From a virus, in the IMG/VR virus record IMGVR_UViG_3300036820_000065, positions 1-25,892 of that record: DNA of 25,892 nucleotides. One strand, given 5' to 3'. Each line of letters begins with the position of its first letter. The stretch's first letter is position 1. Of this stretch, positions 9,986 to 25,892 are shown piece by piece. A program made the translations under genes and the position numbers. The notes beneath the pieces are model-generated. The model searched no databases. It had not been told where the DNA came from and saw only the letters and a list, made by a program, of their open reading frames with translations.

Positions 9986-11578
9986 ATGTCGCTGTCCGCA
10001 GTGCAATTCAACGAGGTTCCGTCAAACATTCTCGTCCCGTTCTTTTGGGGCGAGTTCAACTCCGGCGGCTCGCCTTACGAGAATTTCCCGCGGCCGCTGC
10101 TCGTCGGCCAGAAAGTGTCCGCGGGCGCAGCGGCCGCCGGCGTGCCTTATGGCCCGATCATGTCGCACGCCGACGCGGTTTATCAGTTCGGCGCCACGTC
10201 CATGCTGCTCGCGATGTACGACAAGGCGGCCGCCGCGGCGCCGCTGCAACCGTTCTGGGCGCTGCCGCTCGCCGATCCGTCGGGCGCTGCCGCTGCCGGC
10301 AGCATTTCGATCACGTCGGCGCCTGGCGTGACCGGCGTTGGCATCGTCTGGATCATGGGCCGCATCGTCACGTTCCAGGTGAACGCGTCGGATACTGCAT
10401 CCATGGTTGCCGGCAACCTGGTCGCGGCCATCAATGCGTTGAACGGAGCCAATGCACTGCCGGGCTCGAATTGCCCGATCGTCGCCGCGGTCGATGGCAC
10501 GGACGCCTACAAGTGCGATCTGACTGTCGCGTTTGTCGGCGCGCTCGGCAACGGCCTCGAGGTGACGCTGGCGCCGTCGACGTCGCAGGCGCCGAACGTG
10601 CTCACCAGCGCGAACACGACGCTCGTCGCGCTCGCCGGCGGCTCCGGCACGCCGGACCTGGCGGCGCCGCTCGCCGCGCTCGGGTCGACCGCTTACGATT
10701 GGATTGCGGCGCCGTATGCCGACTCCAACTCGCTCACCGAGGTGCAGGCGTTCTTGTCAGATCAGGACGGCCGCTGGTCGCCGGCGCAGCAATTGTTCGG
10801 GCACTATACCGGCTCTTATCTCGGGCAGTCGCTGTCGACGCTGGTTACGTTCGGCAATACGCAGAACAACCAGCACGCCACCGTGTTCGGCGGTTTTGGC
10901 GCCGGCCCGTCGCCGTCGCCGTCGTGGGAGGTGTCAGCCTCGCTCTGCGGCCTCGAGGTGCTGCATCTTGCCAATCCGCCCGAGCTGTCGCGGCCGCTGC
11001 AGACGCTGCAACTCCCCGGCATCATTCCGCCGCGCGATCCGACCACCTGGTGGACGCCGACCGAGCGCCAGGCGCTCTATTCCGACGGCATCGCCGGTGG
11101 CACCGTGACGGTCGACGGCAAATGCGCGATCGACCGCATGGTGACGACGTATCAGAAAACGGCGGAAGGCGTGAACGATCAAACCTTCCTCGATATCGAA
11201 ACCATGGCGCAGGGCATGTACGCGATGCGCTATCTGCGCACGCAAGTGACCGACGCCTGGGGCCGTGCCGCATTTGCCGACGAGGACCCTTACAACGATC
11301 CGAACGTGGCGACGCCATCGAAGCTCGCGACGACGCTGATCTTTGCTTACAACGATCTGTGCAAGCTCGGCGTCGGGCAGCATCCCGAGTTGTTCCAGCA
11401 ATATGTCGTGGTGCTGCGCAACGCGCTCGATCCCGATCGCGCCGACGCCTATGTCCCGATCAACGTCGTCGGACAGTTGCGTGTGTTCGCCGCCAACGTC
11501 ACGGCGTTCCGCTCCTATACGTCGCCGGGCGGTTCGCCGCTGGTGCCGTCGGCGCCGGGCTATCAGTCGCAAGCCTAA
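9986..11578 (+). CDS. Contractile tail sheath protein, Mu gpL family
   Basis: This 530-aa protein is close to Mu gpL (495 aa). The start motif is characteristic: the segment NILVPFFWGEFNSGG followed by RPLLVGQKVSAG. The C-terminal half also fits the sheath core, with TYQKTAEGVNDQTFLDIETM, then YAMRYLRTQVTDAWGRAAFAD, and near the end the segment PDRADAYVPINVVGQLRVFAAN. The sheath contracts to drive the tube through the cell envelope, which makes this phage a myovirus. The ribosome binding site is CGGAGAGAATCC just before ATG 9986, very similar to those of the scaffold and decoration genes. An Ala/Gly-rich inserted domain with the segment SISITSAPGVTGVG (about residues 95-170) lies between the N-terminal and core regions. 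Confidence 0.93.
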   Translation: MSLSAVQFNEVPSNILVPFFWGEFNSGGSPYENFPRPLLVGQKVSAGAAAAGVPYGPIMSHADAVYQFGATSMLLAMYDKAAAAAPLQPFWALPLADPSGAAAAGSISITSAPGVTGVGIVWIMGRIVTFQVNASDTASMVAGNLVAAINALNGANALPGSNCPIVAAVDGTDAYKCDLTVAFVGALGNGLEVTLAPSTSQAPNVLTSANTTLVALAGGSGTPDLAAPLAALGSTAYDWIAAPYADSNSLTEVQAFLSDQDGRWSPAQQLFGHYTGSYLGQSLSTLVTFGNTQNNQHATVFGGFGAGPSPSPSWEVSASLCGLEVLHLANPPELSRPLQTLQLPGIIPPRDPTTWWTPTERQALYSDGIAGGTVTVDGKCAIDRMVTTYQKTAEGVNDQTFLDIETMAQGMYAMRYLRTQVTDAWGRAAFADEDPYNDPNVATPSKLATTLIFAYNDLCKLGVGQHPELFQQYVVVLRNALDPDRADAYVPINVVGQLRVFAANVTAFRSYTSPGGSPLVPSAPGYQSQA

Positions 11579-11660: not shown

Positions 11661-12047
11661 ATGACAAGTGAGGTTCAGGGTCAATTCGGCGGTCGCGTGG
11701 CCATTACGTTTGGCACGCTATCGCTCGTTATCGCCGAGGCCGAGGTGAAACTCTCGCCGTCGACCACCGAGGTTTCCGCCAAGGCCAACCAGGACGGCTC
11801 CGCGGCTTACGAGGTCAAGGTGCTGCTGGTCGGCGGCGAGTGTGAATTCCGCAACGTCAACGACACCAACTGGTCGACGTTCAACATGCAGTACGGCAAC
11901 GTGACCGTTACGGAAATCGATAGCGGCCGCACGCATCTGTTCACCAATACCCGGTTTGTCGGCACGCCCGACGTGAATGTGTCGAGCGGCGCCATCACCG
12001 GCCTGAAGTGGGCCGGCGGCACCTATCAGTTCCTGCCGACGTCGTAA
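11661..12047 (+). CDS. Tail tube protein, Mu gpM family
   Basis: This 128-aa protein follows the sheath gene, as M follows L in Mu, and is close to Mu gpM in length (118 aa). It is beta-rich with the pattern QGQFGGRVAITFGTLSLVIAE and ends with a typical strand-turn-strand segment (SSGAITGLKWAGGTYQFLP). Hexamers stack into the inner tube around the tape-measure protein and carry DNA to the cell. The ribosome binding site GAGGG lies just before ATG 11661. Sheath and tube as consecutive genes confirm the contractile tail. Confidence 0.9.
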   Translation: MTSEVQGQFGGRVAITFGTLSLVIAEAEVKLSPSTTEVSAKANQDGSAAYEVKVLLVGGECEFRNVNDTNWSTFNMQYGNVTVTEIDSGRTHLFTNTRFVGTPDVNVSSGAITGLKWAGGTYQFLPTS

Positions 12048-12082
12048 AAGAGCGCGATTTCAAAAAGGGAGGTTGCGAGCCG

Positions 12083-12403
12083 ATGCCTAAGACGATCGAA
12101 ATTCCGCTGGAGACTCCGCTCAAGGGGCACGGCGGGAACGTGACCAAGGTCGTCGTCCGCGAGCCCACATTCGAGGAGTATGTGCGTTTCGGCGATCCAT
12201 ATATTTTGGTGCCGATGGAGGGCGGCGGCTATTATCCGTCGGAGGATCGCAAGATCATCGAGTCCTATATGGGCGTGTGCGTAACCGAGCCCGATATTTT
12301 GATCTGCCGTGGAGGGGGGTTTGCCCTGGCGCGGCAAATCAAGGATGCGATCTTAAGTTTTTTCCTGCCCGCGTCCGCGGAGGACGCGGGCTTGAAGACA
12401 TAG
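12083..12403 (+). CDS. Tail assembly chaperone, Mu gp41 family (unshifted product)
   Basis: This 106-aa protein has a ribosome binding site GGGAGG (12067-12072) and the gp41-type pattern: a strand-rich start (IEIPLETPLKG, VTKVVVREPTFEEYVRFGD) and a helical end (LARQIKDAILSFFL). In long-tailed phages the gene between tube and tape measure encodes two chaperones that share an N-terminus, the longer one made by a ribosomal frameshift (lambda G/GT, P2 E/E'). Here the short form terminates at TAG 12401-12403, downstream of a canonical slip site. The short form probably coats the tape-measure protein during assembly and is absent from the virion (family knowledge). Confidence 0.88.
   Translation: MPKTIEIPLETPLKGHGGNVTKVVVREPTFEEYVRFGDPYILVPMEGGGYYPSEDRKIIESYMGVCVTEPDILICRGGGFALARQIKDAILSFFLPASAEDAGLKT
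12358..12391 (+). promoter_or_regulatory. Programmed -1 ribosomal frameshift site (slippery heptamer and stem-loop)
   Basis: The heptamer T TTT TTC (12358-12364) is in the correct register for gp41 (codons TTT 12359-12361 and TTC 12362-12364). Two bases downstream begins a perfect 10-bp stem: GCCCGCGTCC (12367-12376) with GGACGCGGGC (12382-12391), loop GCGGA. The spacer is shorter than the usual 5-9 nt, but the lower base pairs can melt in the ribosome. Confidence 0.87.
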
Positions 12404-12525
12404 CCGACGAGTTGGCTTTCTCGGGGCTTGCTGTCAGCTACACTCTGATTTTTGCGATGCCGATATCGCAGTTGATGTATGTCCATGGCCGTGCTGCGGC
12501 TTGGATGAAGAAGGGCCGTAAATGA
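12364..12525 (+). CDS. gp41' C-terminal extension made by -1 frameshift
   Basis: This is the second part of a fused product that joins 12083-12364 to 12364-12525. After the slip at TTC 12362-12364, reading resumes at C12364 and continues for 53 codons, giving a 147-aa fusion in place of the 106-aa short form. The added part contains a hydrophobic helix (LAFSGLAVSYTLIFAMPIS) and a basic end (RAAAWMKKGRK). No separate ribosome binding site with ATG is visible for this frame, which supports expression by frameshifting rather than as its own gene. Its stop overlaps the tape-measure start (ATGA). By analogy with lambda GT, the extension should recruit tail tube subunits (inference). Confidence 0.82.
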   Translation, partial: PARVRGGRGLEDIADELAFSGLAVSYTLIFAMPISQLMYVHGRAAAWMKKGRK

Positions 12526-14615
12526 AAACGATTGAGGCCCAGCTCGTACTCCGTGCCCAAGACGAAACCGCTGAGGGGTTGAGTAGCGTTCGGAGAAATC
12601 TGGCTTCGGTCCAGTCGGCGGTCGAGCGATTCCGCGCAGCGGCGGCGAAGTTCTCTGACACGCGCTCGAACTTTAGGGCGGCGCAGTTGGCGGTTACGCA
12701 GGCGGCGATGGCGATGCGTAGCGCCACGGCGCCGACAGTTGAATTGAGCCGCGCTTATGAGCAGGCGCAACGGGCGGTCAAGGGCGCCTCGGCAGCGTTT
12801 GAGGCGCAGAAAGTCGCGGTTCTTAGCGCCAAGGAACAAATGGAGAGCTACGGCGCGACGCTTACCGACCTCGCCGCCGGCGAAGATCGGCTGATGCGCA
12901 GAGTCGCCGCGACCGATGCCGCGCTGCGCCGCCGGGCTCGCTTCGGTGCTGCTGCCGGTGAAATGGCGTCTAATATTCTTCCCTTCGCGGGACCCGCCGT
13001 CTTGATGGGAACTAAAAGAGCCGTCATGGCGGGCGCCAGATATCAGAATGAACTGGCTTATGCCTACCCGGCCGCCGGCATCGGCGGAGCGGAGACCGAA
13101 TGGGCGCGCAAACATGCCGGCTCGTTGGCCTCGCGTTATCCGATAGTGTCTTCGGGAGATATTCTTGAACTTTATCGGGAAACGCGCTCGGTGATTTCCG
13201 GCGAGGTTCCCGGCGGCGCGAACTTGAGCCCGCAACAGCGTCTCGCCATTGCCGCGCGGGATACGCAGCGGGTATTTCCCTCCGTTGTCCAGGCCGACGC
13301 GGCGCTTAAGGCATCCGGCGCGGGCGACCCTGGCGACCTGCAGCGCCTGGTCAAAGGCTTTGAGGCGCTCGGCGTTACCCAAGACCCCGTGCGCACCGAG
13401 AAATTATTGGATGCCTACGTCCGCGCGACGCAGGTCGCTGGCAAGACAATACCCGTCGATAATGTGCTGCATGCCATTCAGCAGATGATGGGCACCGGCG
13501 GCATGCTGAGCGATGATTTTATCAAACATACCTTCGTATCGTTGGTGCAGGAAGGCGGCTCGCGCGTCGGCGCCGGCCTCGGTTCCATGGATATGACGTT
13601 TCTCGGCAAGCTCGGCAACCAGCAAGCCGCCGAATGGGAAAAACTTGGCGGCCTTTCGCCAAACGATTTGATTCGCACGAAAACCGGCGCGGTCAAGGGC
13701 CTCAAGCCGGGACACAATATCCATGGCTATCAGCTCGCGCTCAAAGACCCTGATCGCTTTATTTGGAGTGTTCTGGTTCCAGCCATGGTCCGCGCCGGCT
13801 ATACGACCAAAGAGCAACAGATTGCCGAGGTGCAAAAATTATTTGGGTCGGCGCGCGCTCGCCGTATCGCGGCGGCGCTTGTTCAACAGCAGCCGACCTA
13901 TGAGCAGGCGGCCGCGAAGTTCGACTCTGCACAAGGTCTCGGTGCTGCGGATAACGCCGGCCGATCGGCAACAGCGGCGCTGGGAGAATTAACGACCGCC
14001 TTCACCACTCTTATGGCTGCCCTGACCTCGCCGGCGATGGACCGAGCCGCGGCTATGATGGACAAGACGGCGCATTTCATGACGGAGGTTGCGGACCGCT
14101 ACGGCCAATTTGCGAAGAACAATCCGCATGCTTCGGAAGTGGCCGCGGATGCGGGTATCGGCGGCGCGCTCTATCTTGGTGGAAAGATGATGCTTGGCAT
14201 GGCGCGGCGATTGTTTGGCGCCGGCGTGGCGGAGGCGCCAGGAGCCGGGCCATCGATGCTCGGCACGATCGCGAGTTTTCTCGGCCCCGCCGCCTTCGTC
14301 GCCGGTGCTGCGCCGATCATGGCGATGTCGCCGGATTCAAATTCCCCAAACTGGTGGGGATCGCGCGGGACGCCAAACGCCGGCGTCGGCCCGCTTCCCT
14401 TCATCGGATCGCTGGCAAAGGATGCCTATGATTATTTTCATCCGCAGCCGGCCGAAGTCGGCGGTGCCGTGGGCGTCAATGTCAAAGTCGACGTGGCGCC
14501 ATCGCCGAGTTTCGCGACAGAGATCGCGAGCGACGTCGTCAACCTGTTGGGCTGGGGCCACGGGACGTCGGGGTCGACCGGCGTCTCGATGCCGGAGGCC
14601 GTTGCGGGGCCGTGA
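12522..14615 (+). CDS. Tail tape-measure protein
   Basis: This 697-aa protein immediately follows the gp41/gp41' chaperones, as in all long-tailed phages. The N-terminal 140 residues are strongly helical and probably coiled coil, starting with the usual IEAQLVLRAQDETAEGLSSV. Hydrophobic segments occur near residues 148-163, 545-565 and 579-602, fitting the membrane-active parts released into the host envelope. The C-terminus ends with strand-like VNVKVDVAPSPSF and a Gly/Ser tail. It sets tail length and probably helps DNA cross the inner membrane. Using the usual 0.15 nm per residue, the tail would be roughly 100 nm (inference). No peptidase or transglycosylase motif is seen inside it; that function is in the next gene. 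Confidence 0.9.
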   Translation: MKTIEAQLVLRAQDETAEGLSSVRRNLASVQSAVERFRAAAAKFSDTRSNFRAAQLAVTQAAMAMRSATAPTVELSRAYEQAQRAVKGASAAFEAQKVAVLSAKEQMESYGATLTDLAAGEDRLMRRVAATDAALRRRARFGAAAGEMASNILPFAGPAVLMGTKRAVMAGARYQNELAYAYPAAGIGGAETEWARKHAGSLASRYPIVSSGDILELYRETRSVISGEVPGGANLSPQQRLAIAARDTQRVFPSVVQADAALKASGAGDPGDLQRLVKGFEALGVTQDPVRTEKLLDAYVRATQVAGKTIPVDNVLHAIQQMMGTGGMLSDDFIKHTFVSLVQEGGSRVGAGLGSMDMTFLGKLGNQQAAEWEKLGGLSPNDLIRTKTGAVKGLKPGHNIHGYQLALKDPDRFIWSVLVPAMVRAGYTTKEQQIAEVQKLFGSARARRIAAALVQQQPTYEQAAAKFDSAQGLGAADNAGRSATAALGELTTAFTTLMAALTSPAMDRAAAMMDKTAHFMTEVADRYGQFAKNNPHASEVAADAGIGGALYLGGKMMLGMARRLFGAGVAEAPGAGPSMLGTIASFLGPAAFVAGAAPIMAMSPDSNSPNWWGSRGTPNAGVGPLPFIGSLAKDAYDYFHPQPAEVGGAVGVNVKVDVAPSPSFATEIASDVVNLLGWGHGTSGSTGVSMPEAVAGP

Positions 14616-25055: not shown

Positions 25056-25892
25056 GTGACCACAAAAACCGTTCAAATCACCTCCGGCACGAGCTGGACG
25101 CCGCCGTCCGATGCCTTTGGTGCCGTGGCGCAAATCATTTGTTGGGGCGCTGGCGCTAACGGCATCATCGGCAGTCCGGCGCCATGCGGCGGCGGCACGG
25201 GCCCCGGCGGCACGGGGGGCAACTCCGGTTGCGTCGCGTCGATTACCGGCTACACGCTGCCATCATCGGGCACGGTGCCGATTCAGATTCCGGCCGGCAA
25301 CTCGTCGTCGCAATGCTGGTTTAATTCCTCGGCGACGGTCGCGGCGAATTCGCAATCGACGTCGACCTCCGGCATGGTCGGCGCCACCAAGGTCGCCGGC
25401 ACTCCAGGCGCGGCGCCCATCGGCGGCCTTGGCGGCCCCGGCGGCGGCGCGCCGGGACTATCGACGGCCGGCTCCGGTTCGACACCCGGCACGCCGAATT
25501 ATACGCTGACCGCGGGCGGCACCGCGGGACCTGGCGCTGGTGGTTCCGTCTCCGGCGCCGCCGGCTCGCCTTTCGGCGGCGGCGGCGGCGGCGGTAATGG
25601 CGGCAGCACTTGCGGTTGCGGTAGCGGCGTGCCTTCCTCCGGCGCCGCCGGCGCGGCCGGCGGCATCGTTATCATTTACACGCCGTTGACAACTGTCACG
25701 GTCGACGGCCGCGGGGCCGCGGAGGCGCTCGCCAACCTGCGCCGCGACCAGGACGGCGCCGATGAGCTGCTCGCCAACCTGCGCCGCGACCAGGACGGCG
25801 CCGATGAGCTGCTCGCCGGCCTGGCACGCGCCAGCGCAGCCAGCGTCGCCATTGCCGGCAGTGTTCGCGGCGATGGCGCTCTCGGTGTCGCG
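25056..25892 (+). CDS. Gly-rich tail fibre protein (partial, runs off right edge)
   Basis: From GTG 25056 the frame is open for 279 codons to the window end, with no stop. The start (KTVQITSGTSWTPPSDAFGA, then IICWGAGANG) is the common fold-start of Gly-rich fibre domains. It continues as a long Gly-rich section (about residues 45-200) that ends with GAAGGIVIIYTPL, a typical terminus of such domains. These can form bundles of polyglycine helices displaying variable loops. A 14-residue repeat follows (42-bp units at 25727-25817) with LRRDQDGADE, probably a coiled-coil stalk, then AAS/GSV-type sequence. It is inferred to be a receptor-binding or distal fibre. No good ribosome binding site is seen before the GTG. 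Confidence 0.75.
   Translation, partial: MTTKTVQITSGTSWTPPSDAFGAVAQIICWGAGANGIIGSPAPCGGGTGPGGTGGNSGCVASITGYTLPSSGTVPIQIPAGNSSSQCWFNSSATVAANSQSTSTSGMVGATKVAGTPGAAPIGGLGGPGGGAPGLSTAGSGSTPGTPNYTLTAGGTAGPGAGGSVSGAAGSPFGGGGGGGNGGSTCGCGSGVPSSGAAGAAGGIVIIYTPLTTVTVDGRGAAEALANLRRDQDGADELLANLRRDQDGADELLAGLARASAASVAIAGSVRGDGALGVA
25727..25817 (+). repeat. 42-bp tandem repeat inside the Gly-rich fibre gene
   Basis: CTCGCC-starting units begin at 25728, 25770 and 25812. The first two are essentially identical over 42 bp and the third is only a partial start. Each unit encodes 14 residues (two heptads) containing NLRRDQDGADE. The copies keep the reading frame. Confidence 0.9.

Follow-up and report, generated by a model that had tools for sequence, protein, structure and literature searches.

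The locus analysed here raises the question of whether the tail assembly chaperone (TAC) gene of a Mu-type tail module is read by all ribosomes to a single stop, or whether some of them slip back one base near its end and produce a second, longer protein, and of what part a hairpin just past the slip site might play. The window, by which we mean the whole stretch of 25,892 bases, is a virus record, and the module around the chaperone gene is that of a contractile, Mu-type tail. A Pfam search gave, in order, a lambda-type portal (PF05136), sheath (PF04984), tail tube (PF10618), the chaperone gene and the tape measure, followed by a DNA circularisation protein N, a Mu gpP-like hub and baseplate J. 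The chaperone gene lies between tail tube and tape measure, which is the position expected of TAC genes, and its product is homologous to the TACs of loci L001-L012. It matched no Pfam model, PF10109 (Phage_TAC_7) included, and only one uncharacterised PHROG. PF10109, the family to which P2 E and Mu gp41 belong, names the P2 gene E; six of 10 aligned relatives match it (best E 2.8e-7), although the window protein itself does not. At the far end of the window, an ORF at 25056-25892 runs off the window end; close to its end, about 14 residues (ANLRRDQDGADELL) occur as a direct repeat.

The predicted slip site and its two reading frames

The chaperone ORF opens at ATG 12083 and closes with a stop codon at 12401-12403. 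The heptamer T TTT TTC stands with TTT (12359-12361) and TTC (12362-12364) as in-frame codons, and reading in the -1 frame from this point proceeds for 53 codons to a TGA (12523-12525) that overlaps the tape-measure ATG at 12522 as ATGA (Table 1). The original prediction had described a heptamer in perfect register, a perfect 10-bp stem with a 5-base loop two bases past it, and a -1 frame of 53 codons that ends at the tape-measure ATGA and would give a 147-aa fusion, and all three were confirmed in the sequence. The +1/-2 frame of the gene closes approximately 12 codons past the slip site, and thus the window gene holds no extension of the Mu-type, -2 kind.

Table 1. Features of the tail module in the window and, in the last row, of homologous loci that lack the heptamer.
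Feature	Position	Strand	Basis
Tail sheath protein	9986..11578	+	Pfam PF04984, E 2.7e-11
Tail tube protein	11661..12047	+	Pfam PF10618, E 8e-7; PHROG 185
Probable Shine-Dalgarno of chaperone gene, GGGAGG	12067..12072	+	direct reading
Tail assembly chaperone, short 0-frame form, 106 aa (lambda gpG / P2 gpE role)	12083..12403	+	position; homology to TACs
Slippery heptamer T_TTT_TTC	12358..12364	+	canonical heptamer in register in 57/60 homologues
Spacer CT, 2 nt	12365..12366	+	direct reading
Perfect hairpin, 10 bp, loop GCGGA, likely stimulator	12367..12391	+	
-1 frame extension, 53 codons + TGA (lambda T / P2 E' role)	12364..12525	+	homologous extensions
Tape measure protein	12522..14615	+	tblastn matches 3' of TAC in relatives
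TAC homologues with conserved -1 extension, no canonical heptamer	L032:5366-5401, L028:5240-5275, L091:5340-5375		

We consider it very probable, as judged from sequence comparison, that this arrangement is a programmed -1 ribosomal frameshift site. A slip back by one base that yields a longer tail-building helper is common to most long-tailed phages. Most ribosomes would read the 106-aa chaperone through to its stop at 12403; in a minority, the P- and A-site tRNAs on TTT TTC would together move back by one base onto TTT TTT, after which translation would continue to the TGA at 12525. If the two products act as lambda gpG and gpGT do, the short one may coat the tape measure and the fusion, which is the rarer of the two, may recruit tail tube subunits; with such different roles, the ratio between the two would matter.

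Conservation among homologous chaperone genes

Direct searches with the window TAC gave no match in viral contigs, phages or plasmids, and blastn of 11661-14615 gave none against phages. Because the direct TAC searches found nothing, we used the sheath as an anchor and fetched 12 loci, then 77 viral loci and six from bacterial genomes, the latter assigned to Xanthobacteraceae, Rhodopseudomonas, Bradyrhizobium, Chelatococcus, Bosea and unclassified Pseudomonadota. The TAC alignment was too divergent for use in scanning; a chaperone profile search returned 73 homologous ORFs, which reduce to 60 distinct ones. In 57 of these 60, a canonical heptamer stands in register at most 160 nt from the 0-frame stop and is followed by an open -1 frame, which extends for 43-92 codons, in strong support of the predicted -1 frameshift in a tail assembly chaperone pair. 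With a threshold of 40 codons, the combination of heptamer and open -1 frame occurred in one of 57 sheath genes and in none of 54 tube genes; the TAC score of 57/57 in this comparison reflects a set limited beforehand to genes with a site.

The heptamer is TTTTTTC at 32 of the 57 sites, TTTTTTT at 20, GGGAAAC at four and CCCTTTG at one, and additional loci carry C CCA AAG, C CCT TTA or A AAA AAG at the corresponding place. Its identity thus differs between lineages, with register and position held constant. By lineage, G GGA AAC is found in L074, L040, L085, L094 and L126, C CCA AAG in L113, A AAA AAG/A in L130 and L134, and C CCT TTG/A in L081 and L142.

The codon preceding TTT may be GGT, GAT, AGT, TCT, AAT or GCT, so that the amino acid varies; its third base is T at all 52 T-type sites, as against only 15% of the codons of these genes that end in T, and TTT accounts for only 21% of background Phe codons. 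Downstream of the slip, the -1 extension is homologous as a protein: the window extension aligns with those of L007, L008, L009 and L012 at E values from 4e-9 to 7e-10 (the lowest for L012), with a common motif, PAR..RGL.D.ADELAF...YWHGRA, that starts at the first residues past the slip. Taken together, the constant T before TTT, the conserved -1 protein and the switching of heptamers are signs that both the nucleotides and the -1 frame are under selection. The original prediction had proposed that homologous loci be aligned to see whether heptamer and stem are conserved while neighbouring codons vary; the heptamer is indeed kept and the adjoining codon varies, but a comparable stem accompanies only 15 of the 57 sites. 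Two distant homologues recovered by weak matches (L115:5338-5697 and L121:3143-3502) have a plausible -1 extension (GWLAYRFGF...), and no canonical heptamer was found in them.

The hairpin and competing explanations

The arms of the stem, GCCCGCGTCC (12367-12376) and GGACGCGGGC (12382-12391), form the only stem in the 25.9-kb window that pairs perfectly over 10 bp or more and closes a loop of 3-8 nt, and the slip region folds more stably than all of 200 shuffles (z = -4.2). In the predicted fold, part of the U run can alternatively pair with GAAGA 3' of the stem. The strong stem begins after 2 nt, closer than in the standard cassette, where the 3' structure lies 5-9 nt past the heptamer. The original prediction had called this spacer unusually short, which holds with respect to the usual range, but L013, L055 and L057 also have 2 nt before a significant stem; the short spacer of the window is thus not unique. 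It should also be noted that 5-9 nt is the spacing commonly studied, and that the variety of spacer lengths is considered under-appreciated (PMC5009743).

Could the fused frame arise without ribosomal slippage, or could the hairpin serve another purpose? RNA polymerase might add or drop a U on the T run, so that some mRNAs carry the fused frame, and the T6 run of the window, together with runs of seven or eight at 20 of the 52 T-type sites, would give it room to do so. Polymerase slippage requires a long homopolymer, however, and the other 32 T-type sites have only six T, the heptamers G GGA AAC, C CCT TTG and C CCA AAG contain runs of just three identical bases, and the register to the codon frame is constant throughout the homologues. 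The replacement of the T-type heptamer by these three sequences favours tandem tRNA slippage over polymerase slippage, which we regard as very unlikely. It is similarly hard to believe that a small independent gene with a start codon of its own occupies the -1 frame: candidate starts do exist, as a GTG at 12277 upstream and an in-frame TTG at 12412, but such a gene would leave unexplained both the in-register heptamer of 57/60 homologues and a -1 peptide that is conserved right from the first codons past it (PAR...). As for the hairpin, its GC-rich stem might suggest a transcription terminator, yet neither strand has a T run after it, the T run on the + strand precedes it, and it lies within an operon, 5' of the tape measure; a scan found no terminator-like site, and we rejected this reading, whose probability we take to be negligible.

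A more serious alternative, which is compatible with the frameshift itself, is that the heptamer acts alone or with other signals and that the hairpin is incidental. The scarcity of comparable stems in the family speaks for it, a significant hairpin being one equalled by at most 2 of 40 shuffles, as do the spacer, which falls short of the usual 5-9 nt (PMC5009743), and the RG-rich peptide, which demands GC-rich codons. However, when codons were redrawn synonymously with the -1 peptide fixed, only 2 of 300 redraws folded as stably, and 1 of 1500 contained a perfect stem of 10 bp or longer. Stems are also enriched in the family (26% versus approximately 7% expected), several of them with spacers of 2-7 nt, and that of the window ranks among the strongest in the homologue set. 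The closest relative in this gene, among those aligned, has approximately 37% identity, and none is near enough for a compensatory-change test of the stem. An incidental hairpin is therefore a real possibility that we consider somewhat doubtful, and we lean towards a stem that stimulates frameshifting in the window; its presence in only about a quarter of relatives suggests that it is probably an optional stimulator. Such a stem would probably slow the ribosome and raise the slip rate. With the heptamer in the P and A sites, the 2-nt gap would imply that the lowest base pairs are already melted, which would leave approximately 6 bp of stem whose effective distance comes close to the usual 5-9 nt.

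Related systems and a side branch without the heptamer

Tailed phages differ in the shift that they use, -1, -2 or +1, and Mu employs -2 (PMC5009743), which has been called exceptional (PMC4378225). The suggestion of the original prediction that a plain -1 site would be a variation on the Mu-type strategy does not stand: -1 is the rule in such tails (P2, SfV and other Mu-like phages), tail genes usually shift in this direction, and with the -2 of Mu as the exception, the window site is not a variation on Mu. In Mu itself, gene 41 and the frame that overlaps it have the gene position and order of the window, but gene 41 carries no in-register heptamer.

The closest parallels lie elsewhere. P2 E and E+E' resemble the window pair in the contractile tail, the position before the tape measure, the -1 direction and the overlapping short and extended products; the P2 heptamer T TTT TTG, annotated as -1, is of the same type, with G instead of C as the third base of the second codon, and Citrobacter phage phiNP also has T TTT TTG. 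The Mu-type tail of SfV has an identical in-register T TTT TTC in its orf13 region (NC_003444), where the -1 frame is open toward the tape measure, the difference being that the SfV heptamer is close to the 0-frame stop. We note that the record of SfV orf13 (L097:4861-5272; NC_003444 9363-9774) bears no frameshift annotation at this heptamer. In the D3112-like P. aeruginosa phage PaMx73, which is Mu-like, a T TTT TTC -1 site is predicted in core ORFs 35/36, with an extension that runs as far as the start codon (ATG) of the following gene; this site is a prediction only, and the tail is a flexible siphovirus one, unlike that of the window (PMC4378225). No site was found in the Mu-like phage KS10 (PMC2628397). 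The layout of lambda G/GT is like that of the window, with a short chaperone and a rarer -1 extended form whose ratio must be balanced, in a long tail that, in contrast to that of the window, is non-contractile; gpG and gpGT are made at about 30:1, and the efficiency of the P2 type is 2-3 fold higher (PMC5009743).

The window site is thus a well-supported but ordinary case of the known -1 frameshift of tail genes. The Mu-type tail modules that would use this ordinary shift form a wide and largely uncultured group, with relatives among alphaproteobacterial genomes, and annotators should therefore join both frames; seen against this group, the -2 shift of Mu looks like an exception. A heptamer that changes its identity with register and position fixed is also a natural experiment, and a clean one, whose outcome favours tandem tRNA slippage.

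A more curious by-product than the window site is a small sub-lineage without a canonical heptamer. Homologues that keep both frames and lack the heptamer had been named in the original prediction as evidence against the site, and 3 of the 60 (L028, L032 and L091) do keep the -1 extension without an X_XXY_YYZ heptamer. L146 and L147, found later, have the same extension and likewise lack a canonical heptamer; a genome search for further members gave only two weak matches. The side branch thus comprises L028/L148, L032/L145, L091, L146 and L147, and all five sequences share a 16-nt element, CCCTAYCGAGGSCTGA, across the stop codon. This shared element, in the absence of a heptamer, suggests a non-standard -1 shift; it is quite conceivable, if short of probable, that the branch uses such a shift, perhaps a slip of a single P-site tRNA-Pro from CCU to CCC, a reading based on these five sequences. 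Variation within CCCTAYCGAGGSCTGA falls at third positions of the -1 frame (TAC/TAT, GGC/GGG), and PYRGL is kept.
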